A stretch of 64,000 nt of DNA, from contig JADQAV010000023.1 in the NCBI GenBank assembly GCA_019775845.1, forward strand, positions 1 to 64,000, read 5' to 3'. The DNA is from Myrmaecium sp. VS I D KN 1 (lineage: Eukaryota > Ascomycota > Dothideomycetes > Valsariales > Valsariaceae). Every line of letters begins with the position of its first letter. Positions within the stretch are counted from its first letter, which is position 1. Positions 55,029-61,979 of this stretch are shown piece after piece. The notes beneath the pieces are model-generated. The model did no database searches and was not told where the DNA came from. It saw nothing but the letters and a program-made list of their open reading frames with translations. The position numbers and the translations under genes are program-made.

Positions 55029-58000
55029 ATGACTTTCTTCGAGATTTCCAAGAGTGCAGCACTCTGCATTGCAGTTTGCTGGGCGTTCTCCCTCGCTGTC
55101 AACGGGTCGTCAGGCTCTTGCAGCTTCGGTCTTGCCTTCGTGCAGACCATCGTCACTGGCCTCCTGCACGCAAGTGCAGCCCAGTTCCCGGTCGCTTCTG
55201 GCCACCGTGCCATTTTCGACCTTTCCTCCAGCTTCGTAAGTTACCCATTGTAGAACGCTGCGTCGTTGACCGTCGTTGGCCGTCATGGACCGAAGCTGAC
55301 CATCCCACAACAGATGGGCGTCACCGGCGTCCATAAGCTTCTGGTTTTGTCGGTCGGGTTCGATCTGTTCGTCGACTGGCTAATAGCACCGTGCACATCA
55401 ATATTGATGATGGCGGTTGCTGCCGGTGCACGCATTGGCTTCCGGTTCACCGGCACGGTTGCATTGGTAAGTCCTCCAGTCGACGGATGTGATTTGACTT
55501 CGAAACTGACTGTTGCAAATAGAGTCGTCTAGCGTACGATCTCGAGTATGCTTCCGCTGTTTTCGGTGGGCCGGGGCCTCTGCTGTACGGCTTCTGGTTT
55601 CTGGTCGTCAGTTCTGTAAGTTGCCTTTATTCGTCTTTATCTTGAACGCATGCACTAATACCTCCTCAGTGTATTGGTGCCCTCATGATTTCCATGTTCC
55701 CGTTCGGGATGCAACTTCTTTTTTTGCGAGCCGGAAAGGCCCCGAAGTGCACCGCCAAGCTCCAGCTCCTTCGTGCAGAGGATGAGCCTACGGCTCTTGA
55801 TACTGGTGACATTCGTGTCGACCACGTTCCTGCCGAAGGAGCTGCCGCTGAGCCTACCATGGAAATCGTTGAGGAGCAGGCTGCGAAGCCTGCACCTGGA
55901 ACTTCCACTGAGCAAGTCATTCAACATGACGAGCAACCAGTGGTTGATATCCCAAGAACTACGATTACAGAGGTCACTGCTGGCTGTTCTGCCGAGAGTG
56001 ATGACGGTCTGCCCCCACCAAAGGCCGCTCGATCACTCACAGAACCAGCCAAGCAAACCACAGAACAGCATGCGGATGACATTTCAAAGTCTCCGACTCC
56101 CAAGCATGCTGATTATAACATTGGCTCCATGCGACCCATGCCGTCCTTCGCCATCAGGCGTCGTATTCTTTCAAGGTTACCTGCTGAGGATATTTCCAAA
56201 GCAGCGCCAAAACCTTCCAAGAAGCCAATGCCGTCGAGGATCCCGGTCCGCAGGCCTCAGCCGTGCAGACAAATCTCCGTTCCTGCGCACGAACTGGCGA
56301 CGGTCGTGCAAAGGACTGCAGATAAGTCAACGCAGACTGACCTGCAGACGTCCGCGGGGGAGACGGCAGACCGCGCGACGCAGACGAGCGACGAGACATC
56401 GAAAGATGTCAGTCAACGCCATGGTCGTCGCATGGAGCCCACAACACCGAAGCCCGAGGCGGACGACGTCCCTCGAGTGGTGAAGCGCCCAATCGGCCAT
56501 ACAATCTCGTATGCGCCGAAGCTCAGAATGGTGATCACCGAAAGGTCCACTGAGTATGAGCGGCGCCTCCACTTGAGCCAATGGCTCCACGATGTTCACA
56601 ACCCGTCCAGGGTGCGGCCGCGAGCATCATCGTCGACGAAGCCTGCCGCCAAGGCTGAGATCGTCGATGTTGCTTCCCCCGCCGCTTGTGAAGCCATGTC
56701 CGACGACGTCGTTCTGCCTTCGGGCAATTCTATTTCTCCTCCGGCTGGTGCCGTCGTGCCTTCAAAGGCCGAAGAAGACGAGCTTACCAGACATGATCCT
56801 GTGTCCGAGACCACTCCGGTGGTTCTCGCGATAGACAACGGCGGCGACGCCAATCATGCTTCTGGAAGCTCCGAAGAGCCCCCAGCCGACCAAGGGAGCG
56901 AAATCGCTTCCAACCTGGCCCTTGCGGCCACGATTTCTCTCCCGCCGTCCCCGCCGTCCTCACCGGCGCTGGGTCCCGCTCTTCCGTCTTCGCCGGCCGT
57001 CACGGCTACGGCTCCTGGGCCCTCTGTGCCCGCACCAGCTGCCGCGATCGTTCCGATCGCACCTCTTCCGGCTTCTGCGCCTGCCGCGCTGCCGATTTCT
57101 TCCGCGATGTCTGTCCCGCTGGCACCTCTGGTGCGCAAGCGCCCTGCATCGCCCTCTGTGGAGTTCTTCCAGAGCTTCAAGAGGAGGAAGATTGAAGCGC
57201 CGGCGCAGTTGCCGCTTGGCCCCATCTTGACAGCTTTGCCTACACAGCCACAGCTGTCTCCGCTCGCGCTTGTGGAAGTGTCTTCGCAAGCCACTCCGGC
57301 TCCGGCTGGAGCTTCGACGGCACCTGAGTCCGACCAGATAATGGCGGACTCGGTGCCAGAGAAGAACGAAGGCACTCACATGGCCGGAGACGAGCCCTGT
57401 GTGCCGGCCCTCACGGGTCCGGTTGAGCAAGTTGTCCCCTCGGTGGCCATCACTGGTCCCGAGGTGCAGATGGAAGAGGCCACCACCCCTCAAAAGGTGG
57501 TTATTCAAGAGGCTGCATCTGTTCCTGAGGTTCAGATGGAGGAGATTTCGTCCCCAGCCCCTGTCCCAAGCCCGACCTCAAGGTCCGGTCCTTCGCCTGC
57601 GGGTGCAGCTCCGCGCGACGTCAAGACCCCAGCCGCCTTTAGGCTGGAGAGAGTCGCAGTTGCATCCGCCAATCTGGCTAACCCCATCTGGGGCGAGAAC
57701 ACCTTTCTCAAGCCAGTGGCCGAGGAGGCGAAGCAACCGGACCAGAAGAGGACGGTTAACAAGGGCAAGGTGGTCTCGGCCGTTGACGATCACGATAACT
57801 TCATCTGGTTGAGAGGCCAGATTGAACACATTGGAAAGGGCTTCGGCGTTCTTTCCCAACCCAAGTCCAGCAGCAAGGGGCAACCTCTGCTCGACAAGGA
57901 CTTCACCATCCAAGCTTTGGGGGTGATGTGGTCGGTCACTCACCATATGAGCCTCTTGTATGGAGAACATAAAGAGGAGCTCATGAGTACCGGCCTCTTG

Positions 58001-58957
58001 GAGTTGGCGGCAAAGCTTCGCACGACCGCCATCCTTTGTGCCTCCCACGACGACAAGCTTGCGACCTGGTTCAAGTGGCCAGCCCATAAAAAGGGGCATG
58101 GCCCGCTTGCCAGCGAGCTCGCTGTCGTCTGCGGGAGGGTTATCGAAGACGTGTTGCGCCGCGCGTACCGCCTTCCCGGCCAGCCCTTCGAGCTAGCCGG
58201 TCTTGACGATGTCAACACTGGTGATAGGGGAGATCGGGGTGTCTTGAACCCGTTCTTCCGCATCGAAGTGGCCAGCGCCGGCTGGCAGGAGCGCGTGGCC
58301 ACTGTCTGGGCCGCATACGTCGGAGCCGTGGAGAGCTTCGACGTGGCCGTCAACACCGCCGGTTCCATCTGGGACAACGGCGCAATCTCCCCTCGTCTTC
58401 TCGCCGCCCGGCTCCGGCACTGCCTCGAGGCGGGCCGGTGGCTCTGCGATGGCTGGCCGCAAGAGCCAAACCGGCGGAGGCATTCCGAGCTCCGCCGCCA
58501 ACGCGCCGAGGACGCCGAGAGACTCCTTGGGATGGTGACTTCCTGGAAGCCGGAGCAATCCGACGAAACCTGGGGCCTGCTGAGCCAGCGCGCCAGGGCC
58601 CTCCACAGCATGCTCCGGAATGGGGGGCGTGCTCTCGACGTCCGTCACGGGGCGGGCTGGGAGTACGTCGACCGGAAGGACGAGCTGTGGGGGGAGGATC
58701 TCGCCATCTGGGAGGCGGAAGACGAGAGGAGGTTGTTCGGGGACGACGACGAGGACGTCGAGGGCGGCTCGGGGGCAGCCGTCGCCAAGGTGGACATCGC
58801 CCGTCTGCCTTGGGTCGAGTACACTGCCAACCGCTATTGGGAGAGCGGTTGGAAGGTGCGCGATCTCGAATATCGTCCGGACAAGGCCCCATACGACAAG
58901 GATCGTTGGGGCCAGGGAGTGAGCGGTCCTATCAAGAGGAAGCGAGACACGCCTTGA
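55029..58957 (+). CDS. Orphan multi-pass membrane protein with long disordered middle and helical C-terminal domain
   Basis: I do not recognise this 1246-residue protein. Four exons are inferred: 55029-55235, 55314-55466, 55523-55615 and 55670-58957. All three introns are phase 0 with GTAAGT donors. Exons 1-3 and the start of exon 4 encode about 180 residues with roughly four hydrophobic segments: ALCIAVCWAFSLAV, FGLAFVQTIVTGLLHASAAQ, the exon-2 pair around LLVLSVGFDLF and ILMMAVAAGARIGF, and YGFWFLVVSSCIGALMISMF. A Pro/Ala/Ser/Glu-rich disordered stretch of about 550 residues follows, with TQTD/TQTS and PEVQMEE repeats and a basic FKRRKIE patch. The last 420 residues (from about FRLERVAVASANLANPIWGE) are dense and helical, Trp-rich, and end in an acidic segment plus KRKRDTP, a possible nuclear-type basic tail. 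Function is unknown. Tandem repeats start 27 bases after the stop. Confidence 0.82.
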
Positions 58958-58983
58958 GAAAGCGGCTCGCGAAAGGCCTCACC

Positions 58984-59860
58984 CCGATAGAGGGGGAACG
59001 CCTGGTCCTGGGCAAAATGACCTCATCATAAAAAAGGCCCCTTTGGTTCGTTTCATGAAAACCTTTCTTTTCTTTTCTTTTCGTTCGTTTTTTTCTTTTC
59101 GGAGGCTTCCCATCTCGAAGGACGCCTTGTCCTGGGCAAATATGACCGTAACGAACTGCCCCTCAAGGCCACCCTCTGGGCGCCTGGTCCCAAGCAAATA
59201 TGACCTCACCAAAAAAGGCTTCCGACTCCATCACCCTCTCTCGGAAGGCTACACTATGGGCGCCTCGTCCTGGGCAAATATGACGGTAAACTGCCTACTC
59301 TCTCTCTTTCAAGGCTGCCCTTCTGGGCGCCTCGTCCTGGGCAAATATGAGTCGAAACTGCCTACACTCTCTTCTGGGCTTCCCACATGGGCGCCCGGTC
59401 CCGGGCAAATATGACCGTAAACTGCCTACTCTCTCAAGGATTCCCTTCTGGGCTCCTGTCCTGGGTAAAATGACTCGAAACTGCCCAATCTCACTCAAGG
59501 CCACCCTCTGGGCGCCTGGTCCTAAGCAAATAAGACCTCACCAAAAAAGGCTCTTCTCACTCACACACAAACACACTCACTCAAAAAAAAGCCTCCCGTC
59601 AAGGGCGCCTGTCCTAGGTAAATATGACCATAAACTGCCTACACTCCCTCATGGGCTTCCTGTCAAGGCGCCCGGTCCTGAGCAAATACGACCTCACCAG
59701 AAAAAAAGGCTCTTCACTCCCTCAAAACTAAAAAAGGCCTCTCATTGGGGACGCCTGTCCTGGGTAAACATGACGATAAAACTGCCCACAACAAGGCTAC
59801 CTCAGGGCGCCTGGTCCTCGGCAAAGGTGACCTCATCAAAAAAAGGCCCCACTGATTCGG
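58984..59860. repeat. Degenerate ~60-bp tandem array with two interleaved unit types (about 12 units)
   Basis: Each unit has the core CCTGGTCCTGGGCAAA or a close variant. Core GCAAA/GTAAA positions are 59012, 59136, 59194, 59274, 59341, 59405, 59465, 59526, 59618, 59682, 59764 and 59821, with a stray GCAAG at 60053. The spacing is 57-92 bp apart from one 124-bp gap that holds a TTTTC-rich insert. Two tails occur. Type A runs into ACCGTAAACTGCCTAC. Type B runs into ACCTCACCAAAAAAGG. The order is B A B A A A A B A B A B. Length polymorphism and unit loss are evident, so the array is old or fast-changing. No known repeat family is recognised. Confidence 0.85.
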
Positions 59861-59910
59861 AAAGGCATTTGGGTGGAGGTTTATGGTTTTTCGGTTTCTT
59901 TTGGGTTTAC

Positions 59911-60004
59911 GGAGTTGGTGGTTCTTGCTTTGGGAAGGGAGTTGGTGGTTCTTTCTTTGGTTTACGGAGTTGGTGGGCTCTGCATCGGATTACGGCGTTG
60001 GTGG
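59911..60004. repeat. 28-bp tandem array, four copies of a GGAGTTGGTGG unit
   Basis: GGAGTTGGTGG starts at 59911, 59938 and 59966, and GGCGTTGGTGG at 59994, giving a period of 27-28 bp. Between cores lies a variable TTCTTGCTTTGG/GGTTTAC stretch. It directly follows the ~60-bp array. Confidence 0.85.
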
Positions 60005-60720
60005 TTGATTTTGGGGGGTTTTGCTGCATTCGATTTCCTTCGGTGGTCCTGGGCAAGGACCTCAGCACAAAAAGGCCCTTGACTTTCGACGGGCTGTTGC
60101 GGTGCAGCTCATGACGATGATTATGATGAGAACGGCGTTGGGGAGTTCTTTCTTTTTACTTCCTTCTGAAAGCATACATACCCAAGTCTTTCAGCGAGCT
60201 TTTGCTCATTACGACCGTCACGACCATCATGAAATCAATTGTCTTATTACTTGTCCGCATTGATTCTTCTTTGATCTGATCATGTAATTCATGTTCTCTA
60301 TTCTCTCTTCTTCCACCCGCTAAACCTCCTTCGCGCAACCTGGATCTGCCGCTTTGGCTCAGGACCACGGGAGCTCTTTTGACCCGCGCCTGACTTCACA
60401 GAGCTGCATATTCGATGCGTACAGTCACCCGAGCGAGCAGTTCATGGGCGATCGGGACAGCAGCCTGGCGCTTCTCTTAACGGCGCTGCATTTCAGCAAC
60501 CCCATTCACTGTTAGGAAGATCAGACAGCGATCCCAAGCCGAGGAAGGGCTCTTCATGACCAGGTTCTCGAGGCGACGACTTCCGAAGAGCCTTGATATG
60601 TTTGCTCTGCCCTGACGAGGACGACGTCCAGCACGGCAGGCATGCCGATATCGATGGGGGTGTTTGTGTATGAGGCCAATGCATGCAGAGGCAGCATGCG
60701 TATGGTACTTTTCTGCTCCT

Positions 60721-61576
60721 TCAAAGCACAAGGAGCAGGACCAAGAGCAGTATGAGCACGAAGATCAGCACCGCTATACAGCAGCTGGACCATCGGTCTG
60801 CAGGCGACGCGTCAGTTCACGGCCAACGATGCAACATGAAGAGAAACCGGGAAACTCACCCTCATTTTGTCGAATGACCCAGCCCACCTTCTTGATCCCC
60901 GTCTGGATCTTGCCGCCAACTCGATCTGCGACGTTGTCGACCTCCTCCAGGATATGCGCTTGCTCCTCCAGTTCCCGGCCCATATCATCCGCCTGCTGTC
61001 GCAAGTTGCCCACCGTCCGGAAGACGCCATCCAGCGCCTCGTCCTGCTCATGCAAGATCTCCATCTGCCGCTCCTGCTCAAACGCCGCATAGTCATCATC
61101 CTCACCAAACGAATCCGGATCCGGCAACGCATCCTCGCTGCCCGGCGCGCCCTTGCCCTGGTGCTGCTGCACCTCCGCGACCGTCTTCAGCAGCTCCGTC
61201 CGCATGTCCTCGACCTCCTGGCCCACGTCGGCGACCAGCTGGCGCCGCCGCTCCACCTCGTCCAGCTCTAGCCCGTACCGGTACGGGTCGTGCTCGACCG
61301 CCTTCACGCTCTCGACCAGGTCCTGCAGGTCGGCGGAGAGGTCTTGCAGCGTGTCCTCGAGCTCCTGTCGCGCCTCGACGAGCTCGGGCGAGCGCGCGGA
61401 CGAGGCGCTCGAGCGGATTCGGATGTAGCTGTCGAGCTGGGGGCGGCAGGTCGAGAGGAGGGCGAGGACGTCCCTGGGTACGGAGAAGAGGGTCAGTTCG
61501 GATGCGAATTGGCTGGGGGATCGCGGGCCGGGGAGACAAACTCTTGTACTTGGAGGAAGGGATCTTCGTTGGCCAT
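60721..61576 (-). CDS. tlg1: Tlg1/syntaxin-6-type Qc-SNARE
   Basis: The 241-residue tail-anchored protein resembles Tlg1 (syntaxin 6/10 group), a SNARE for fusion at the trans-Golgi and early endosome. It starts MANEDPFLQVQEDVLALLST, the family opening. An N-terminal helical (Habc-like) region follows. The SNARE motif runs from about EQERQMEILHEQDEALDGVF to GIKKVGWVIRQNE; LEEQAHILEEVDN supplies the central Gln of a Qc-SNARE. The last exon codes a 20-odd residue membrane span (CCIAVLIFVLILLLVLLLVL) right at the C-terminus. Exons are 61542-61576, 60860-61473 and 60721-60797, 242 codons including the stop, with phases 2 and 1 that both restore frame. The 35-nt first exon was placed by donor GTTTGT and by the expected QxDVL junction. 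It is divergent from the methyltransferase gene across 403 bp. Confidence 0.9.
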
Positions 61577-61979
61577 TTTGGTCTCAGATCGTACAAGATC
61601 TTCTGGACAAACGCTAAGAACGCAAGATGTGCTGCAGGCAAACGGGAGCGGTGGACACGCTGTGGATATCTTCGGAGGGCAGAGGCTGGGGTACGTAGCA
61701 CCAAGAGCTCAGGTACTGAGATTCCGGGGGGCAGCTTGACGTTTCGGCGATTTGCCCGCACAATCTCCGCGTCACGTGGCTGTCATTTTTCCAGGGTCCG
61801 TCAGGAACGGTTAAAAACGATCGAGAAAAATGTATGTTACCGTTATTACATACCCATGATAATATTTTGACAGAGGAGGAGCTGTTGATTCTGGATTTTC
61901 TTTGACCGGGGGACCCTATATTGACTCTGAAATCTTTGTGACAACTCCCTGGGAGTGACTTGGGAGGTTTGCGAAAGAA
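61577..61979. promoter_or_regulatory. Divergent promoter between TLG1 and the METTL25-like gene
   Basis: A 403-bp head-to-head spacer. No gene or clear factor site is seen. Confidence 0.45.

Follow-up and report, generated by a model that had tools for sequence, protein, structure and literature searches.

A degenerate tandem array of a hairpin-forming repeat beside an orphan gene of Myrmaecium sp. VS I D KN 1, probably a nuclear minisatellite

Background

Just downstream of an orphan open reading frame in the ascomycete Myrmaecium sp. VS I D KN 1 lies a tandem array of short units in which two unit types are interleaved. Is this array a minisatellite, a series of structured RNA modules, a cluster of protein-binding sites or a coding sequence? 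We addressed this question in a window of 64,000 nucleotides (the whole stretch of DNA analysed, positions 1 to 64,000 of contig JADQAV010000023.1) and by searches of the genome, which comprises 25,660,682 bases in 66 contigs. The answer that we favour, with a probability of about 0.6, is that a low-copy hairpin-forming repeat has given rise here to a degenerate minisatellite of the nuclear genome, unusual though basically ordinary.

Organization of the array

The 12 units of the array were defined by hand alignment on a core whose 23-base consensus is GCCTGGTCCTGGGCAAATATGAC. They share a layout that includes short inverted repeats, which the earlier note on this DNA did not mention: an arm AGGC or a variant of it, an inner part, an arm GCCT entering the core, an A-rich stretch and a linker, the linkers being mostly pyrimidine- or A-rich. 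The inverted repeat upstream of the core (AGGC..GCCT) is here called S0, and its inner part has the form CCC-loop-GGG in 7 of the 12 units (by eye). The other, S2 (GGGC..GCCC), has its first arm in the core and its second (GCCC or GCCT) in the A-rich stretch of the tail. The 12 units follow each other head to tail on the plus strand at 58974-59860, and a degenerate thirteenth lies at 60029-60081:

58974..59040, plus strand: unit 1, type B; S0 AGGC/GCCT, S2 GGGC/GCCC; followed by a 62-base T-rich linker
59103..59161, plus strand: unit 2, type A
59166..59221, plus strand: unit 3, type B; S2 AAGC/GCTT; 95% identical to unit 8
59246..59296, plus strand: unit 4, type A
59312..59363, plus strand: unit 5, type A; plus-strand pairing probability 0.95 for S0 and 0.96 for S2
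59376..59427, plus strand: unit 6, type A; S0 GGGC/GCCC (both sides changed)
59437..59486, plus strand: unit 7, type A; S0 AGGA/TCCT (both sides changed), S2 GGGT/GCCC
59498..59553, plus strand: unit 8, type B; S2 AAGC/GCTC (one mismatch)
59589..59640, plus strand: unit 9, type A; S2 AGGT/GCCT, S0 with one mismatch
59653..59712, plus strand: unit 10, type B; S0 GGGC/GCCC, S2 GAGC/GCTC
59735..59787, plus strand: unit 11, type A; S2 GGGT/GCCC
59794..59849, plus strand: unit 12, type B; S2 CGGC/GCCC (one mismatch)
60029..60081, plus strand: unit 13, found by covariance model; a degenerate solo copy of type B in which S0 is not recognised

The array lies on the plus strand, at the coordinates given by the earlier note, and hand alignment on the core reproduces exactly the order of types that it had read, B A B A A A A B A B A B. 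Its count of about twelve copies is right within those coordinates, the thirteenth copy lying beyond them. The 16-mer CCTGGTCCTGGGCAAA, which it had proposed as the common core, is exact in the first unit only, every other unit differing from it at one position at least. Chance does not account for the array: allowing at most one mismatch, we count 11 copies of the 11-base core word TCCTGGGCAAA in the window, of which 10 lie in 59006-60057, against 1.53 +/- 1.23 in shuffled sequence, with none of 100 shuffles reaching 11. A tandem-repeat search, which the earlier note had suggested, detects the middle of the array (59256-59485 with a period of 131, and 59257-59536 with a period of 64), the rest being invisible to Tandem Repeats Finder alone.

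Core-to-core spacings among the 12 units are 124, 58, 80, 67, 64, 60, 61, 92, 64, 82 and 57 bases. The covariance model, trained without unit 13, gives that unit 20.9 bits, with E 1.8e-5 in an unfiltered scan of 1,351 bases. With default filters, a scan of the whole window recovered it again (E 8.4e-4) along with 11 of the 12 training units, unit 2 being the one missed.

The division into two types is borne out by the tails once these are aligned on the core. What sets A apart from B is the sequence that follows the core, up to where the second S2 arm closes, and also the linker. In the sequence from core to arm, units of one type share 79-81% identity and units of different types 44%, whereas identity in the core is 80-84% in both comparisons. 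Mean identity is 81% in the core and 38% in the linkers, the latter figure being depressed by length variation. All these identity and spacing statistics refer to 12 of the 13 units, unit 13 being left out.

Growth of the array

The interleaving of types had been attributed to duplication of a two-unit A+B block. Were this so, the identities of partner units should be concordant; we found a correlation of 0.65 for B followed by A and of -0.14 for A followed by B (six non-independent comparisons each). The closest pair of units is 3 and 8 (95%), followed by 4 and 5 (88%), all other pairs being 60-85% identical; units 4, 5 and 6 make up an A cluster (81-88%). Beside the closest pair, the flanking units are only 75% (units 2 and 7) and 79% (units 4 and 9) identical. 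The 131-bp period reported by the repeat finder represents A-A pairs (units 4-5 with 6-7), and a 106-base direct repeat of 73% identity joins units 5-6 (A-A) to units 9-10 (A-B). Copying of several units at once may therefore have occurred, but the A+B dimer is not clearly supported, and identities among the 12 units are patchy rather than dimeric.

Genomic setting

We take the array to be nuclear, given the length of its contig (172.9 kb) and the G+C content of the window (0.46-0.64). The open frames next to it are:

55685..58957, plus strand: upstream orphan open frame of 1,090 aa (predicted ORF; start and exon structure putative)
60774-61307, minus strand: downstream frame of 177 aa (from the ORF list; overlapped by other frames)
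61102-61761, minus strand: downstream frame of 219 aa (from the ORF list; overlapped by other frames)

The earlier note had called the upstream gene an orphan, and database searches agree: the 1,090-aa frame has no match in Pfam at E 0.001, in NCBIfam at E 0.1 or among PDB sequences at E 1, and no convincing second copy in its own genome, where the sole other match has E 0.09 and 26% identity. Its stop codon ends at 58957 and the first hairpin arm of the array begins at 58974, 17 positions further on, where the earlier note had let the array begin 27 bases after the stop. As the two downstream frames are on the minus strand, the array probably lies between convergent genes, and a location within the 3' UTR of the orphan gene's mRNA is plausible from the sequence. 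The window contains no tRNA gene, and a bacterial promoter and terminator scan, of a type unsuited to this organism, gave nothing above its own shuffles.

Distribution of the core

The whole array matches only itself in the genome, match counts being lower bounds, in keeping with a low copy number. The strict 23-base core with up to three mismatches has 14 forward and no reverse matches in the genome, and a reversed control pattern none on either strand. Eight of these matches are in the array and six on another contig, C7. Since this pattern misses 5 of the array's own 13 units, which carry indels or more changes, degenerate copies elsewhere may escape it. The C7 matches fall in two places 5.3 kb apart, a solo copy at C7:679164 and a five-copy cluster at C7:684492-684685, in which four cores follow at 29-base steps and the fifth lies further on, in a sequence context unlike that of the array. 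A short open reading stretch of the same orientation (about 115 codons, possibly not an exon) ends about 170 bases before the first core of the cluster, and above this stretch is a P-loop frame with sub-threshold AAA/helicase matches. Because these copies share the core in a different context, it is the core itself that repeats; the 29-bp array on C7 keeps it largely without the S0 and S2 arms, and the arms are not fully kept at the other places either.

A further copy at C64:244517 is doubtful. This candidate has one mismatch in 18 and scores 19.1 bits (E 0.0015 in 39 kb, for a locus picked beforehand by pattern from 25.7 Mb), and it overlaps an open frame on the minus strand. By eye, CCC-loop-GGG hairpins lie upstream of the core in the C7 solo copy, in the last copy of the C7 cluster and in this doubtful one. 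The solo copy, in a stretch without a clear gene, has such hairpins on both sides of its core. Looser core patterns, whose yields come partly or entirely close to those of their controls, give 62, 60 and 53 matches, the array's own units included, against 22, 36 and 46 for the controls. Among the loci read by eye and those scanned with the covariance model (19 in one scan, 13 in another), many loose-pattern matches being outside this set, nothing better than E 0.2 was found apart from those on C7 and C64.

As far as these searches reach, the repeat belongs to no known family, as had been supposed. The window has no Rfam match at gathering scores, and at an E limit of 5 the region 58900-60250 has a single one, a minus-strand match to DUF805b that scores 17.6 bits where the gathering score is 35.6; this speaks against a known ribozyme or cis-regulatory RNA. 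IMG/VR has no match to two exact core patterns, and the two core-pattern matches in bacterial contigs are not above chance (about 15 expected by our own estimate for the pattern length). None of six core strings occurs in the main texts of the open-access papers searched, and among those listed by topic we recognised none on this repeat.

Covariation of the hairpin arms

The main alternative to a minisatellite is that the plus strand encodes a functional RNA, either a 3' UTR element of the orphan gene's mRNA or a non-coding transcript in its own right. Its units would be tandem modules, with two hairpins in type A and alternative hairpins in type B, presenting the loop AAATATGAC to a protein in the manner of other tandem structured RNA repeats. 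If transcribed, the array would share with two such repeats, the XIST A-repeats and the roX boxes, a layout of structured cores and pyrimidine-rich linkers. The start of the array 17-27 positions past a stop codon on the same strand agrees with such a role.

The arms do vary in a matched way between copies, S0 occurring as AGGC/GCCT, GGGC/GCCC and AGGA/TCCT. We scanned all 4-bp helices between seven block pairs and compared them with 1,000 permutations; to be ranked, a helix had to be at least 80% paired. The blocks had been placed by eye to fit the arms, a choice that biases the scan towards structure. Within their blocks S0 and S2 rank first, as a functional RNA would predict: over all units the family-wise values are 0.000 for S0 and 0.004 for S2, and within type 0.006 and 0.011. 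A helix shifted by one and overlapping S2 reaches 0.012 (all units) and 0.040 (within type). Four of the other five block pairs have values of 0.20 or more and one is without any paired helix.

A second test used the covariance-model alignment. It contains 8 cells changed on both sides, compared with 3.3 +/- 1.4 in shuffles (none of 500 reaching 8), which also favours RNA; its covariation score is reached by 1 of 500 shuffles and its number of paired cells by 6. The two other measures of the five fall within the shuffles and count against it, namely the pairs with two-sided change (4, reached by 72 of 500) and the further pair types (6, reached by 435 of 500). The hand blocks make the better covariation test, as S0 is misplaced in several units both in a MAFFT alignment, where it is off by one, and in the model alignment, which keeps some of these shifts and has S0 only 73.5% paired.

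The number of events behind this signal is small. Two-sided S0 changes are GGGC/GCCC in units 6 and 10 and AGGA/TCCT in unit 7, and the former may be one event, as both units lie within the 73% direct repeat. Without units 5, 8 and 10 the permutation values are 0.014 for S0 and 0.033 for S2; leaving out unit 6 as well raises S0 to 0.13 and leaves S2 at about 0.03 (0.029), which weakens the case for RNA. Within types, S2 covaries in B units (0.034) but not in A units (0.57), a further point against it, and S0 in A units (0.024) but not in B units (0.20). Perhaps four to six events are involved in all. Arm covariation thus passes permutation, yet on few and partly related events, and we regard it as a hint.

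We also considered an H-type pseudoknot in which a helix S1 (GTC/GAC) interleaves with S2, and set it aside as undemonstrated; it lends a functional RNA no support. When G-U pairs are allowed, permutation reveals no covariation of S1 (0.20 for all units, 0.71 within type), its family-wise values in the helix scan being 0.20 and 0.70. With Watson-Crick pairs only, the values are 0.019 and 0.27.

Predicted folding

On the plus strand, S2 has a pairing probability of 0.80-1.00 in all seven A units, against 0.00-0.31 on the minus strand in six of them (0.76 in unit 2), and its cells pair in 50 of 52 cases as plus-strand RNA and in 45 of 52 as minus-strand RNA (13 units). These figures point to an RNA read from the plus strand, but in the six B units S2 forms poorly on that strand (0.00-0.34), and S0 shows no preference for it. 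S0 cells pair in 47 of 48 cases as plus-strand and in 48 of 48 as minus-strand RNA (12 of the 13 units, unit 13 being excluded), and the probability of S0 is higher on the minus strand in 7 of 12 units (0.99 against 0.01 in unit 12, for example). Its plus-strand values are 0.66-0.95 in units 4 to 7 and 0.00-0.15 in units 2, 9 and 11 among type A, and range from 0.01 (unit 12) to 0.99 (unit 10) among type B.

Fold energies, which are not clearly better than those of shuffled sequence, likewise argue against a functional RNA. None of the 13 units on either strand is clearly more stable than 200 dinucleotide shuffles (best z -1.26 on plus, -1.69 on minus). Windows of 150 bases taken every 100 bases over 58401-60550, with 40 shuffles each, give no consistent excess of stability over the array; within it, 59301-59450 has z -2.95 on the plus strand (0/40 shuffles as low) and -2.26 on the minus strand, and the two strongest z-values, at 58601 and 59901, lie outside. 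Together with the near absence of the arms in the C7 cluster, this leaves a functional RNA as an unlikely reading, though the strongest of the competitors. A more specific version of it seems improbable. In this version a nuclear family of short hairpin elements would have expanded within the 3' UTR of a lineage-specific gene into an array in which two RNA folds alternate; selection would maintain the pairing of the arms, and the array would act as a tunable, copy-number-dependent regulator of the mRNA.

Origin of the array

The weak folding, the small number of events, the lack of strand preference in S0 and the C7 core largely without arms make a minisatellite the cheaper reading. Minisatellites have units of 10-100 bp repeated head to tail at one locus, and the array has 12 such units with the thirteenth nearby, one spacing (after unit 1) being 124 bases. 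A low-copy element of about 50-65 bases, made of the GC-rich hairpin S0, the core, a tail with the second S2 arm and a linker, would have grown to 13 copies mainly through copying of single units or short runs, along with local conversion, the two tail versions A and B coexisting. No function would be required for the array. Its matched arm changes would probably stem from template switching at quasi-palindromes, or from weak selection for hairpins.

Covariation is customarily taken as evidence of RNA selection. Template switching can, however, produce multi-base compensatory changes in both arms of a stem, as stated in a passage of PMC8794818; a tandem array with palindromic arms would be a likely site for it, and it could account for the matched arms as easily as RNA selection. 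Two observations stand against a pure minisatellite, the covariation of S0 and S2 beyond permutation and the better preservation of the core than of the linkers. As a neutral tandem array should diverge evenly, it is possible that the core is under constraint, or that the core alone is mobile.

Should the arms be kept by selection, the array would be a natural and compact set of structured RNA repeats within a UTR; should they be kept by mutation, it would be a nuclear example of how template switching could alter both arms in concert and thereby imitate what is normally read as a sign of RNA structure. In both cases it calls for caution when tandem repeats are tested for covariation. If it is a plain minisatellite, its main interest would be as a possible strain marker.

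The closest described kind that we found would be the repetitive hairpin-forming elements of mitochondria. Passages of PMC2800124 describe those of sponge mtDNA as short, both dispersed and tandem, with some units differing by complementary substitutions, and its reference list includes double-hairpin elements of Allomyces mtDNA. Like the sponge elements as described there, the units of the array are short, tandem and hairpin-forming, with pairable arms in each copy (picked by eye, and of fold energy not clearly above shuffles) and some complementary substitutions. Unlike these mitochondrial elements, the array is taken as nuclear, its covarying arms are only 4 bp long and its best-kept part is the core, not the arms; dispersal of the core amounts to the two places on C7 and the doubtful one on C64. 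A part of PMC4560493 reports 23- and 39-nt repeats in the rDNA intergenic spacer of Colletotrichum lentis, the 23-nt ones said to form hairpins. These are likewise tandem fungal repeats of tens of bases that form hairpins, but the array lies near an orphan gene instead of in an rDNA spacer, has two tails and consists of more degenerate copies.

Other readings

The core could instead be a putative DNA-binding site, recognised perhaps by a transcription factor or a chromatin protein, with the array as a cluster of sites between two probably convergent genes and the arms as incidental. Preservation of the core in the 13 units and the six C7 copies, next to diverged linkers, is consistent with this, as is a GTC...GAC half-site palindrome found in 12 of the 13 units, with a spacer of exactly 12 bases in 9 of them. 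However, all core copies within each locus have the same orientation, as tandem copying alone would produce, and a factor with only three or four target loci in 25.7 Mb would be unusual, allowing for degenerate sites that may be missed. We know of no factor for this core, and consider the reading rather improbable.

That the array encodes a repeated peptide is very improbable: an open frame of 255 aa with a TTG start (59347-60114) crosses several units, but it has no NCBIfam match and only 2 of the 11 spacings are multiples of 3, so that the frame would be broken unless splicing restored it. Since the unit spacings shift the reading frame, this open frame is probably due to chance.

Neighbouring sequences

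Near the end of the orphan frame, at 58601-58750, the plus strand folds far better than its shuffles (z -4.90, 0/40) and the minus strand does not. About 50 bases past the array there is a second, different tandem repeat, at 59911-60016, of four copies of about 27-28 bases (GGAGTTGGTGG...). The segment 59901-60050, which spans this second repeat, also folds better than its shuffles on the plus strand (z -3.13, 0/40).
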